Of a DNA stretch of 64,000 nucleotides, positions 5,765 to 45,770 are shown piece by piece. Below the pieces are notes generated by a model, which saw only the letters and a list, made by a program, of their open reading frames with translations, was not told the origin of the DNA and did not search any database. The stretch comes from Agromyces terreus (GTDB lineage Bacteria; Actinomycetota; Actinomycetes; Actinomycetales; Microbacteriaceae): positions 496,001-560,000 of the forward strand of contig NZ_WBIS01000002.1 of assembly GCF_009749465.1 (NCBI RefSeq), given 5' to 3'. The translations under genes were made by a program, and so were the position numbers. Position 1 is the stretch's first letter, and each line of letters starts with the position of its first letter.

Positions 5765-5823
5765 ACTGTATCCGAGTCGCGCGCGCGATGCATGCCGCCG
5801 GGGCATCCGTCGCCCGACCAAGT

Positions 5824-5900
5824 TGCCGGATTCGGAGATTCGGGCGACGCGCCGCACCGCAGGGGGGACGGCACGGCGCGTCGCCCAGAACTCCGAATCG
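5824..5900. repeat. Long palindromic element, copy A
   Basis: An approximately 77-bp near-palindrome. The outer arms ATTCGGAG (5830-5837) and CTCCGAAT (5891-5898) and the inner arms GGGCGACGCGCCG (5842-5854) and CGGCGCGTCGCCC (5874-5886) are perfect inverted repeats. A close relative lies at 37893-37974 inside hemY. The two share the start TGCCGGATTCGGAGATTCGG and the end CTCCGAATCG. It resembles a non-coding REP or MITE-like element. No coding function is seen. Confidence 0.75.
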
Positions 5901-5907
5901 CGTGAAC

Positions 5908-6000
5908 CACCCCGGCGCAACCACCCGGCGCGACCACCCGGCGCAACCGGCCCGGCGCAACCACCCGGCGCAACCGGCCCGGCGCAACCGGCCCCGGCGC
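5908..6000. repeat. Tandem 13-14 bp repeats before tdh
   Basis: About seven degenerate units of the form CCRSCCCGGCGCAA follow one another between element A and the tdh promoter. The unit length alternates between 13 and 14 bp. There are no unique spacers, so this is not a CRISPR array. With the operator and element A it fills most of the 425-bp gap between the divergent MFS and tdh genes. Confidence 0.7.
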
Positions 6001-8342: not shown

Positions 8343-8376
8343 TCTCGCGTTCGTGCGCACGTCCCGACCGAGTTGC

Positions 8377-8428
8377 AGGAAACGAGGCGGCATCCCCCTC
8401 TCACAGCGGGGATGCCGCCTCGTTTCCT
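8377..8428. terminator. Bidirectional terminator between kbl and the SDR gene
   Basis: A perfect 21-bp inverted repeat (arms 8377-8397 and 8408-8428) surrounds a 10-nt loop. The arms begin AGGAAACGAGG and end CCTCGTTTCCT, so each strand ends in a short T-rich run. It sits between two convergent genes and should stop transcription from both sides. Confidence 0.88.
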
Positions 8429-8445
8429 TCATGTGAGCAGGGAGG

Positions 8446-36706: not shown

Positions 36707-37855
36707 ATGGCACGCGTGATCCTCTCTCCGCTGCATCCCCTCTCCGCAGGCCTCACCGGCGACTCGCGTCTCGTGCGCGCATACCGGGGCGAGCGCGCCG
36801 ACACCGCGCCCGTGTGGTTCATGCGGCAGGCGGGCCGCTCGCTGCCCGAGTACCGCGACCTGCGGGTCGGAACGCGCATGCTCGACGCCTGCCTCGACCC
36901 GGCGATGGCGAGCGAGATCACGTTGCAGCCCGTGCGTCGCCACAAGGTCGACGCCGGCATCTTCTTCAGCGACATCGTCGTGCCGTTGAAGCTCGTCGGC
37001 GTCGACGTCGAGATCCAGCCGGGTCGCGGGCCCGTGTTCGGCCGCGGGTATGCGGATGCCGCGGGCGTGGCCGAGCTCACGGCGATCGACCCCGCGCGGC
37101 TCGACGAGGCATCCGCCCCTATCACCGAGGCCGTGCAGCGCACGATCGCCGAGCTGAACCGCACCGACAACGGCAGCGGCACCGCAACCCCCCTGATCGG
37201 TTTCGCGGGCGCGCCGTTCACCCTCGCCGCGTACCTCGCCGAGGGCGGCCCCTCGAAGGACCACCTGGCCGCGCGCACCCTCATGCACGCCGACCCGGGC
37301 GCGTGGCGCGCGCTCATGGAGTGGACGGCCGAGCTCACGGGCCGCTTCCTGCGCACGCAGGTGCTGGCCGGGGCATCCGCCGCCCAGCTCTTCGACTCGT
37401 GGGCGGGGGCGCTGTCGCTCGCCGACTACGAGACCCACGTCGCGCCCGCCTCGGCGACGGCGCTGAGCCACGTGCACGGACTCGAGTACGAGACGACGGA
37501 TGCCGCGGGCGCGGCCGTGACGCGTGCGGTGCCGGTCGTGCACTTCGGGGTCGGCACGGGCGAGCTGCTCGGCGCGATGCACGCCATCGGCGTCGACGCG
37601 GTCGGCGTCGACTACCGGGTGCCGCTGGATGTCGCGGCGGCGCGCATCGGCGACGGCGTCCCGCTGCAGGGAAACCTCGATCCGGCGCTGCTGGCCGCGC
37701 CGTGGCCCGTGCTCGAGGCCGCGGTGCGCGACGTGCTGCGGCGGGGGCGGGCCGCCCCCGCGCACGTGTTCAACCTCGGCCACGGCGTACCCCCCGAGAC
37801 CGACCCCGCCGTGCTCACGCGCGTTGTCGAGCTCGTGCACGAGGCGGGCGCATGA
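36707..37855 (+). CDS. hemE: Uroporphyrinogen decarboxylase
   Basis: Converts uroporphyrinogen III to coproporphyrinogen III. The product is about 382 residues. The family signatures APVWFMRQAGRSLPEYR, GFAGAPFTLAAYL and VVHFGVGTGELLGAM are present, with VFNLGHGVPPETDP near the end. ATG 36707 is used; a GACAAT -10 box at 36703-36708 overlaps it and would place transcription at a GTG 36716, so the real start may be leaderless GTG three codons later. Its stop overlaps hemY by 4 nt. Upstream direct repeats suggest regulation. Confidence 0.94.
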   Translation: MARVILSPLHPLSAGLTGDSRLVRAYRGERADTAPVWFMRQAGRSLPEYRDLRVGTRMLDACLDPAMASEITLQPVRRHKVDAGIFFSDIVVPLKLVGVDVEIQPGRGPVFGRGYADAAGVAELTAIDPARLDEASAPITEAVQRTIAELNRTDNGSGTATPLIGFAGAPFTLAAYLAEGGPSKDHLAARTLMHADPGAWRALMEWTAELTGRFLRTQVLAGASAAQLFDSWAGALSLADYETHVAPASATALSHVHGLEYETTDAAGAAVTRAVPVVHFGVGTGELLGAMHAIGVDAVGVDYRVPLDVAAARIGDGVPLQGNLDPALLAAPWPVLEAAVRDVLRRGRAAPAHVFNLGHGVPPETDPAVLTRVVELVHEAGA

Positions 37856-39480
37856 GCGAGGGGGTCGCGGCCGCGCCGGGCGGGACCGAGTCTGCCGGAT
37901 TCGGAGATTCGGCCCGACACGCCGGTGGGCGGGATGCCGCAGACGGCGCGTCGGCGACATCTCCGAATCGGGCAGCCACCACGACCGACGTGGTCGTCGT
38001 CGGCGGGGGAGTGGCGGGGCTCGTCGCTGCGCTCGAGTGCGCGAAGATCGGCCTCGCCGTCACCGTGCTCGAGAGCCGCGAGGCGCCCGGCGGCTGCGTC
38101 GGCCGCGTGACGCTCGGCGGACTGACCCTCGATTCGGGCGCCGAGTCCTTCGCGACCCGCGGCGGAACGGTCGCCGAACTGCTCGACGGCCTCGGCCTCG
38201 CCGACGCGATCGAGCAGCCGGACCCCTCCGGGGCGTGGCTCGTCTGGCCGGCCGGGCGCTCCGGTCGCGACGGCTCGCCCGTCGACGCCGCGCCGTTGCC
38301 GCGCACGGGCATGCTCGGCATCCCGGCCAACCCCCTCGGCGACGACGTGCGACGCATCATCGGCTGGAAGGGGGCGTCCCGCGCCTACCTCGACCGGCTG
38401 AAGCCGATCCTCCGCATCGGTCGCGCGCACAGCCTCGGCAAGCTCGTGCGCGACCGCATGGGCGACCTCGTGCTCGACCGGCTCGTCGCGCCGATCTCGT
38501 CGGGCGTCTACTCGACGAACCCCGACGACCTCGACCTCGACGTGGTCGCCCCCGGCCTCAACGAGGCCATGACGCGCACCGGTTCGCTGTCGGGCGGCGT
38601 CGGCCAGCTCCTCGAGGAGCGCAGGGCGGGCAGCGCCGTGCAGGGGCTCGACGGCGGCATGCACCGTCTCGTCGACGCGCTGCTCGCGCAGCTCGAGCGC
38701 TTCGGGGCCGACGTGGTGACCCAGGCCCCCGTCACGTCGCTCGTGCGCGCCGAGGGCGACGGCGGCGACGCCGGCTGGCGGGCGACGGTCTCGCGCGACG
38801 ACGAGGACGATCTCGTGCTCGACGCGCGGTTCGCGATCATCGCGGCCCCGGCGGTCTCGGCCCGGACCCTGCTCGCCGGCGCCCTCGACGGCTGGGCCGA
38901 CGATTTCGCGGAGGGCCCGGCCGAGGCATCCGTCGAGGTCGTGATCCTCCTGCTCGACGCACCCGTGCTCGACGCCGCCCCGCGCGGCACGGGCGTGCTC
39001 GTCGCGACCGACACGCCCGGCATCACGGCGAAGGCGCTCACGCATTCGACGGCGAAGTGGCCGTGGCTGGCGAGGCGCACCGACGGTCGGCACGTCGTGC
39101 GACTGTCGTACGGGCGCACGGGCGAGCCGAACCCGCTCGCGGGGCTGAGCGACGACGAGGTCCGCGAGGTGGCGCTCGCCGATGCATCCGCCGCGCTCGG
39201 GGTCGACCTGCCCGCCGGCGCGCTCCTCGAGGTCGGCCGTGCGAGCTGGCGCGACGCCCTCTCCCAGGCGACCATCGGCCGCCGCGATCGCGTGCGCGCG
39301 CTCGAGGAGGTGCTCGACGCGGAGGACGGGCTCGAGGTGACGGGGTCGTGGGTCGCCGGCACCGGGCTCGCCTCGGTCGTGCCGCACGCGATCGAGGCCG
39401 CCGCCCGCATCCGGCATCTCGCGGTCGCACCCCGGATCGACCCCGGCGCGCGCCCCGACCCGACGGCCGGGAACGCATAG
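37852..39480 (+). CDS. hemY: Coproporphyrinogen III oxidase (HemY/CgoX type)
   Basis: FAD enzyme that oxidises coproporphyrinogen III to coproporphyrin III in the coproporphyrin-dependent route of monoderm bacteria. The 542-residue protein has the Rossmann motif VVVVGGGVAGLVAALE at about 46-61, LDSGAESFATRGG and, near the end, WVAGTGLASVVPHAIEAAARI. The first 45 residues are an unusual Gly/Ala/Ser-rich extension, and residues about 14-41 are encoded by a palindromic repeat element (37893-37974). The overlap with hemE (ATGA) supports ATG 37852. Downstream is the YtxH protein. Confidence 0.93.
   Translation: MSEGVAAAPGGTESAGFGDSARHAGGRDAADGASATSPNRAATTTDVVVVGGGVAGLVAALECAKIGLAVTVLESREAPGGCVGRVTLGGLTLDSGAESFATRGGTVAELLDGLGLADAIEQPDPSGAWLVWPAGRSGRDGSPVDAAPLPRTGMLGIPANPLGDDVRRIIGWKGASRAYLDRLKPILRIGRAHSLGKLVRDRMGDLVLDRLVAPISSGVYSTNPDDLDLDVVAPGLNEAMTRTGSLSGGVGQLLEERRAGSAVQGLDGGMHRLVDALLAQLERFGADVVTQAPVTSLVRAEGDGGDAGWRATVSRDDEDDLVLDARFAIIAAPAVSARTLLAGALDGWADDFAEGPAEASVEVVILLLDAPVLDAAPRGTGVLVATDTPGITAKALTHSTAKWPWLARRTDGRHVVRLSYGRTGEPNPLAGLSDDEVREVALADASAALGVDLPAGALLEVGRASWRDALSQATIGRRDRVRALEEVLDAEDGLEVTGSWVAGTGLASVVPHAIEAAARIRHLAVAPRIDPGARPDPTAGNA
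37893..37974. repeat. Long palindromic element, copy B, inside hemY
   Basis: An 82-bp near-palindrome. The outer arms (37893-37908 and 37959-37974) match over 16 bp with one mismatch, with ATTCGGAGAT opposite ATCTCCGAAT. Inner arms CCGACACGCCG and CGGCGCGTCGG differ by one base. It is related to copy A at 5824-5900. It lies in frame and encodes part of the HemY N-terminal extension. Confidence 0.8.
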
Positions 39481-45400: not shown

Positions 45401-45566
45401 GCGGCATCCGCTTGCCCGCGGCATCCGCCGCCCGTTGTCATTCCGGGCTGCTCCTAACGCCGACACGCCGGTCGAAGCCGACGACATGCCGGCTCGTCGG
45501 CCCGATGCCAGCCCGCAGTCGCGCCGCGAGCAGCCGAGCGGGCTCGCCCGAACTCCGTCTCCCCGG

Positions 45567-45649
45567 GCGCAATTCAGGCGCGGAGCGGCGTGTTGCCAGA
45601 CGGTATGCGGAAAGCCGGCTCGCGACACACCTCTGCACCTGAATTGCGC
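45567..45649. repeat. Inverted repeat upstream of hemB
   Basis: GCGCAATTCAGG (45567-45578) and CCTGAATTGCGC (45638-45649) form perfect 12-bp arms about 59 nt apart. Inside, GGCGTGTTG and CGACACACC are partly complementary, so the 83-bp unit could fold or be a degenerate mobile element. It is AT-richer than the region around it. No open frame within it is credible. Confidence 0.6.
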
Positions 45650-45654
45650 ACGTG

Positions 45655-45770
45655 GCTCGGGAGGCGGGGAGCTGAGGAAGAGGGAGTGGGGCGTGGGGGA
45701 AGTGGGGAGGCGGGGGGCTGAGGAAGGGGAGTGGGGGAAGCGGCGTGGCGGGGAAGGGGGGAGGGGTGGG
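45655..45770 (+). repeat. G-rich purine tract ahead of hemB
   Basis: About 115 nt of the plus strand are almost all purine and mostly G, with many runs of four or more G. A phrase of about 40 nt built on GAGGCGGGG-GCTGAGGAAG-GGGAGTGGG occurs twice. Such a tract could form G-quadruplexes or triplex DNA. It ends about 47 nt before the hemB start. The other bases of the 477-bp gap are repeats described separately. Confidence 0.75.

Follow-up and report, generated by a model that had tools for sequence, protein, structure and literature searches.

The palindrome that lies in frame within the hemY gene of Agromyces terreus is probably a solo copy of a repeat that belongs to a two-part system, the other part of which is a chromosomal nuclease gene that spreads the palindromes. 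Genome comparisons reveal the pairing of gene and palindrome, the specificity of the arm word, turnover in place and conservation of the arms, and we infer that it is the nuclease that spreads the palindromes.

Results

The window that was analysed comprises 64 kb (G000:C20:496001-560000) of the 3.7-Mb draft genome of A. terreus (G000), and coordinates without a contig refer to this window. Unless a family search is quoted, the names hemE, hemY, hemD, hemB, hppD, dapA and thyA are based on inspection of the translations. The hemY-like gene is an open reading frame on the forward strand at 37852..39480 (PF01593 Amino_oxidase, E 1.7e-31), and its N-terminal linker contains a solo palindrome of the GATTCGGAG family at 37892..37975, which was recognized by inverted-repeat search, by folding and by a match to a covariance model termed R1 (G000:C20:533891-533976, E 2.4e-12). 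The same three approaches identified an intergenic solo palindrome of this family at 5822..5906 (R1 match G000:C20:501822-501906, E 1.0e-12). The original prediction of two related palindromes at these places was confirmed for both arms and folding: the arms in hemY (37892-37908 and 37959-37975) are 17 nt long and 94% complementary, those of the intergenic copy (5829-5859 and 5869-5899) are 31 nt long and 84% complementary, and folding as single-stranded DNA yielded -36.2 kcal/mol (z -5.7) and -36.4 kcal/mol (z -6.7), respectively, with none of 200 shuffles as good in either case. Directly behind the intergenic palindrome is a short tandem repeat of 13-14 bases (AACCACCCGGCGC and similar; 5905-5989), and a 58-bp hairpin with a score of 21.5, possibly a terminator, is located at 8374-8431.

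The expectation that a search with the 20-base ends would find further copies in the genome proved correct. With up to three mismatches, the 19-mer GCCGGATTCGGAGATTCGG had 21 matches in the A. terreus genome (some of them both arms of one palindrome, a few of them non-palindromes) versus one match for the reversed control, and 14 strong copies of the family were recognized; the looser pattern ATTCGGAGNNTNNGCGACNCG with three mismatches was rejected (56 matches versus 25 for the control). R1, which was built from the 14 copies, retrieved these sites with E < 1e-6, while the next match in the whole genome had an E value of 6.5e-4. All 14 copies measure 70-72 from GATTCGGAG to CTCCGAATC, the loop is different in each, and the aligned layout consists of an outer arm (T)TGCCSGATTCGGAG, an inner part GCGACACGCCG, a loop of about 20-25 bases and the mirror image. 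Base-pair covariation in the stem did not exceed that in shuffled alignments, and therefore a selected hairpin is not claimed. At E <= 0.001, R1 also had weak matches in relatives, with 22 of 60 genomes matched; these probably reflect an inner core common to other palindrome families and were therefore left out of the counting. The window also contains a solo palindrome of a second family, with the arm word GCAATTCAGG, between hemD-like and hemB-like genes (45561..45655), and this word brackets another gene of the AbiEi-DUF559 type in A. terreus (L144, G000:C21:8947-9759).

Counted from the ATG at 37852, the palindrome encodes residues ~14-41 of HemY, in frame as predicted, and in A. terreus HemY an additional stretch of about 28 residues (SAGFGDSARHAGGRDAADGASATSPNRA) follows a variable N-terminal stub and precedes the FAD motif. 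Comparison with 29 hemY loci, found by searching 36 other Agromyces genomes, indicated that the copy is lineage-specific, again in line with the prediction: an insert of the SAGFGDSARHAGGRDAADGASATSPNRA type was present in none of the 26 readable N-termini (L117, L128 and L129 gave no motif match), the best palindrome in the 29 regions was never of the GATTCGGAG family, and conservation in hemY of distant genera, which would have spoken against the idea, was not observed. The exact ends of the insert are unreadable because the length of the linker varies. The idea that the palindrome is tolerated inside genes, as in Rickettsia, gained support from a second copy of the family, which a histidine ammonia-lyase gene (PF00221, E 5.6e-179) carries in frame. 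Residues 2-158 and 199-531 of this enzyme align with residues 8-164 and 166-497 of the PDB lyase 1gkm, and because the alignment runs straight across the insert, about 40 residues are extra, 29 of which are encoded by the palindrome. A third copy (L024) overlaps the end of an FMO-like frame and would encode its C-terminus, and in three genomes (L210, L220, L227; Pfam on two) a LysR-type gene contains an in-frame copy of another palindrome family.

In several genomes, two palindrome copies lie about 1.1-1.2 kb apart, and each of the five intervals that were read holds one gene of about 300-410 codons. In A. terreus this partner gene, bracketed by the same palindrome, is situated outside the window at G000:C6:33652-34581, and three palindromes (R1 matches) flank it, a pair at one end and a single copy at the opposite end; the two on the same side are in tandem, 105 bases apart (L062, G000:C6:33426-33614). 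The protein of about 300 amino acids combines an N-terminal AbiEi-like winged helix (a weak match) with a C-terminal DUF559 (Vsr/EDxHD-like) nuclease. Among five partner proteins, the Pfam profile DUF559 scored above the cut-off in four (E 6e-8 to 5e-4), MTES_1575, which has been termed a Vsr REase (PMC3710099), scored below the cut-off in all five (E 2e-7 to 0.015), and the N-terminal AbiEi_4 profile scored above the cut-off in two (E 4e-8 to 0.28, the latter for the A. terreus protein). The AlphaFold model has a mean pLDDT of 61, with residue blocks 201-330 at 76-90 except 271-290 at 55-65. A Foldseek search with this model returned no match at E <= 0.001, and its best neighbours were 3hrl (E 1.6e-3) and 3r3p, the catalytic domain of the homing endonuclease I-Bth0305I (E 8e-3, TM 0.79 of target); TnsA and an AbiEi antitoxin (6y8q) were far weaker matches. 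The candidate active-site residues E, D, H and D, which we equated with the EDxHD family motif by our own assignment, are kept in 68, 68, 70 and 69 of 70 relatives, respectively. Six of the seven named loci that match the partner protein are from Agromyces (A. salentinus best) and one is from Glaciibacter. A search of plasmids and phages retrieved only four weak relatives on plasmids, one of the plasmid relatives being annotated as an AbiEi family antitoxin, and one on phages, and thus there is no evidence for carriage on mobile vectors. The A. albus nuclease gene is broken up into different frames, and it was matched with equal scores on two contigs (L107, L108), which may be due to duplication in the assembly.

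The bracketing of the gene was tested blind by scanning 70 relatives (30 + 40 loci, taken from a longer match list) for palindromes of any sequence. Palindrome candidates were present on both sides in 52 of the 70 loci, and the left and right arms were alike (score >=9) in 34. Of 338 mismatched pairs, 14 had similar arms, and so did 5 of the 233 intervals that were taken from other loci as pseudo-genes (4/143 and 1/90). The 36 loci that failed were made up of 18 without candidates on both sides and 18 with dissimilar arms. These counts are lower bounds, because the palindrome finder was ungapped and missed the bracket of A. terreus (L074, arm score 5), although R1 copies flank that gene. Flank palindromes with a score of at least 13 were found in 30 of 60 gene flanks versus 4 of 227 windows further off. 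In a set of 20 further loci, for which the most similar arm pair was chosen, a looser rule than for the 70, and in which one locus (L256) represents a gene already included among the 70 (as L152), ten were bracketed, among them 6 of the 12 from other families of the order; one genome of this set, G038, has a pair of near-identical 72-bp palindromes. Bracket pairs also occur at a Glaciibacter locus, on a Tsukamurella plasmid and on an Actinomyces oris plasmid, the palindrome of which, used as a query, matched only its own record, in two places. A second Tsukamurella locus (L243) had no pair, and on a phage contig (L244) only one palindrome was present near the gene.

The arm word is tied to the protein. 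For the 36 loci with a pair, arm similarity correlated with protein identity (Mantel r 0.564, 0 of 5000 permutations), and the fraction of pairs that shared an arm word was 3/3 above 70% protein identity, 14/18 at 60-70%, 16/63 at 50-60% and 19/546 below 50%. Beside hppD, the words are GGATTCGGAGAT in A. terreus and A. salentinus (G027), GGATTCGGGGAT in G019, CGTTCAGGGGATT in A. humatus, AACTCAGGATGC in A. italicus (G028; near-identical in G025) and TCCGGATGC in A. albus (G031) and ISL-38 (G007); TCCGGATGC is also present in G008, and its location beside hppD was read for A. albus and ISL-38. The arm word at this place thus shifts stepwise.

A second locus is situated between dapA- and thyA-like genes. 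Five genomes contain GCGGATATACGATCC there, G033, G012, G024 and G034 have the gene with other words, and G018 has the gene as well, but a palindrome was visible at just one of its two sides. Neither the gene nor a palindrome of the family type was seen in G036, G003 and G030; the three gene-less alleles (L234, L236, L238) lack a family palindrome, and their flanks are too diverged for an exact junction. As judged from the sequences, one chromosomal locus holds different types of gene and palindrome, or none, in different species. An exact search with the current word of G033, GCGAGTCAGCGGATG, found the two bracket copies in G033 and one lone match in G005, which is an under-count because the site L272 of G033 has a one-base variant.

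Solo copies of an arm word are scattered in genomes that possess the corresponding gene type or that have close relatives with it. GCGGATATACGATCC is present in 8 of 60 genomes (reversed control, none), five of which have the gene bracketed by GCGGATATACGATCC, and most sites were counted, by hand, in G035 (27). G033, G012 and G018 carry GCGGATATACGATCC, the matching bracketed gene was not found in them, and these copies look like orphans. The intact GATTCGGAG palindrome is present in 3 of 60 genomes: A. terreus and G027, both with the bracketed gene, and G013, which has a single GATTCGGAG match without the core. Forty solo copies that were examined are 66-67 bp long and have near-invariant arms. 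In 15 orthologous pairs the identity was 98.6% for the outer arm, 90.7% for the inner arm, 68.5% for the loop, 69.3% for the first 30 flanking bases and 83.5% for bases 30-300. It should be noted that the orthologous sites were located by one intact arm, which favours conserved arms; nevertheless, at ~69% identity hardly any 15-base word would be expected to survive, and several orthologues kept the word.

The original prediction of a small mobile palindrome was upheld in part. Presence and absence differ between species: when seven G017 sites were compared with G033, G020 and G036, four were seen in G017 only, G033 shared one, G033 and G020 both shared another, and G020 shared the last (L214). 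At this last site, G017 and G020 hold the old type, and the palindrome of G033 (L272) is one base away from the word of its current gene, as if the resident nuclease imposed its own arm word on existing sites. Signs of recent movement were not found: there was no recent duplicate pair, the loops differing in every copy compared, and neither a target-site duplication nor a clean junction was readable, the intergenic flanks being unreadable. The one identical palindrome pair (L038/L059, both in G027) was rejected as a sign of recent movement, since the printed flanks are identical too, and it is probably a duplicated or twice-assembled stretch.

Discussion

In the mechanism that we propose, a protein dimer would bind the two inverted arms through its winged helices, and the EDxHD domain would cut or nick at the palindrome. 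Repair or replication from another copy would then plant palindromes at new sites and restore the arm sequence. The gene would keep its locus while its specificity changes and the palindromes follow, with old ones staying behind as orphans, and a copy inside a gene would persist where it leaves the reading frame open, hemY and the histidine ammonia-lyase gene being examples. I-Bth0305I, for which binding as a dimer across nearly 60 bp has been reported (PMC3943268), is a fair physical model for such a dimer.

A different reading, which we regard as unlikely, is that the protein is mainly an autoregulator like AbiEi, with the palindromes as binding sites, the solo copies as its regulon and the nuclease as a secondary property. 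The binding of AbiEi antitoxins to inverted repeats at their own promoter (PMC7319586), the position of one bracket palindrome next to the start of the gene, and the conservation of the arms but not of the loops would all suit operators. However, the second palindrome is located behind the gene, some copies lie inside coding regions, and the nuclease residues are kept in 68-70 of the 70 relatives. In addition, the solo copies are seldom found between divergent neighbours: a simple GC-frame method assigned only 5 of 40 to this context, compared with 15 convergent, 14 tandem and 5 within ORFs (1 unclear), and for the 14 copies of the A. terreus family the same method gave 7 tandem (hemY included), 5 convergent, 1 divergent and 1 within an ORF.

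In a restriction-like or addiction role, the nuclease would protect or attack DNA, and the palindromes would not be a spreading unit but would serve as marks, as decoys or as sites of cleavage through which loss or invasion is punished. Such a role would agree with the Vsr-like nuclease, with allele turnover at one locus, as in restriction specificity, and with orphan copies after a switch. We nevertheless consider it improbable, as no methylase or toxin partner was noticed by eye in the loci that were read, and a scatter of palindromes in dozens, up to the number counted in G035, would be left unexplained. It is highly improbable that, as for the Rickettsia elements, some unseen enzyme without relation to the nuclease spreads the palindromes, and that nuclease genes merely landed between copies; in-frame coding copies are indeed common to both cases (PMC3733652, PMC10969869), but arm words that are gene-specific and track the protein, and bracketing in several families, would not be expected. 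Movement of REP elements by a Y1 (RAYT) transposase, the enzyme that the original prediction had suggested looking for, can practically be dismissed, because the likeness of dispersed palindromes and a bracketed gene is one of form only, the profile PF01797 matched none of the 37 Agromyces genomes and 2 of all 60 genomes while the same search matched 5 of 14 control genomes, and the repeats are ~56-115 bp long versus 16-37 nt for REPs (PMC8266576).

Nevertheless, the proposed system of nuclease and palindromes has several features in common with the REPtron, i.e., REP sequences together with TnpA-REP/RAYT (PMC8266576, PMC3733652): dispersed palindromes, one chromosomal gene that is bordered by them and does not multiply, type-specific pairing, and solo copies that are mostly outside genes and sometimes inside. 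The gene-palindrome system may thus work like a REP/RAYT pair, with an unrelated enzyme: the REPtron has an HUH Y1 enzyme, whereas a winged-helix DUF559/EDxHD-like nuclease is present here, and the repeats described here are longer and have a rigid length and a free loop. The palindromic elements of Rickettsia (RPE) likewise lie in frame inside unrelated genes, but in the present case the palindrome brackets a matching enzyme gene; CGTC-tagged REPs, to which RPE-4 and RPE-6 were assigned, have been reported without a dedicated transposase (PMC3733652). The EDxHD homing endonuclease I-Bth0305I is a fold neighbour of the protein (3r3p), with which it shares the conserved E, D, H and D, but the partner gene was not seen in an intron or intein, and the word that is recognized, if it is the arm, stays on both sides of the gene and is not interrupted. 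The type IV toxin-antitoxin system AbiE is similar in the N-terminal AbiEi_4 match and the weak fold match to 6y8q, but the C-terminal half of the partner protein is a nuclease, and neither inspection of the loci by eye nor the gene tables of three plasmid loci revealed an AbiEii gene nearby.

We regard the system as categorically new, because the known families considered either fail a tested defining feature or could be compared in some of their features; if, however, the mechanism turned out to be that of the REPtron in all but the enzyme, a REPtron variant would be the fairer class. The literature consulted, mostly open-access and seen in part, contained no description of a gene of the DUF559/AbiEi type paired with palindromes. 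The evidence seems to us evenly poised as to a more general view: that a widespread actinobacterial class of palindrome-dispersing systems, unrelated to REP/RAYT, is run by a winged-helix EDxHD nuclease, that the specificity changes in place between sister species, that the palindromes are replaced or abandoned to match, and that strays become coding.

Dispersed palindromes are common in bacteria. The literature considered, in the parts that were available, named only Y1 (RAYT-type) enzymes as their partners. In several actinobacterial families, by contrast, a nuclease family that is unrelated to these enzymes, and that annotation calls an antitoxin or leaves without a name, is flanked on both sides by its own palindromes. 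Which enzyme makes such repeats could thus be tested directly, for which a single small protein and a short piece of DNA would suffice, and the system may offer proteins matched with their targets as a natural series from which a DNA-recognition code could be read, as well as another lineage in which palindromes became parts of proteins.
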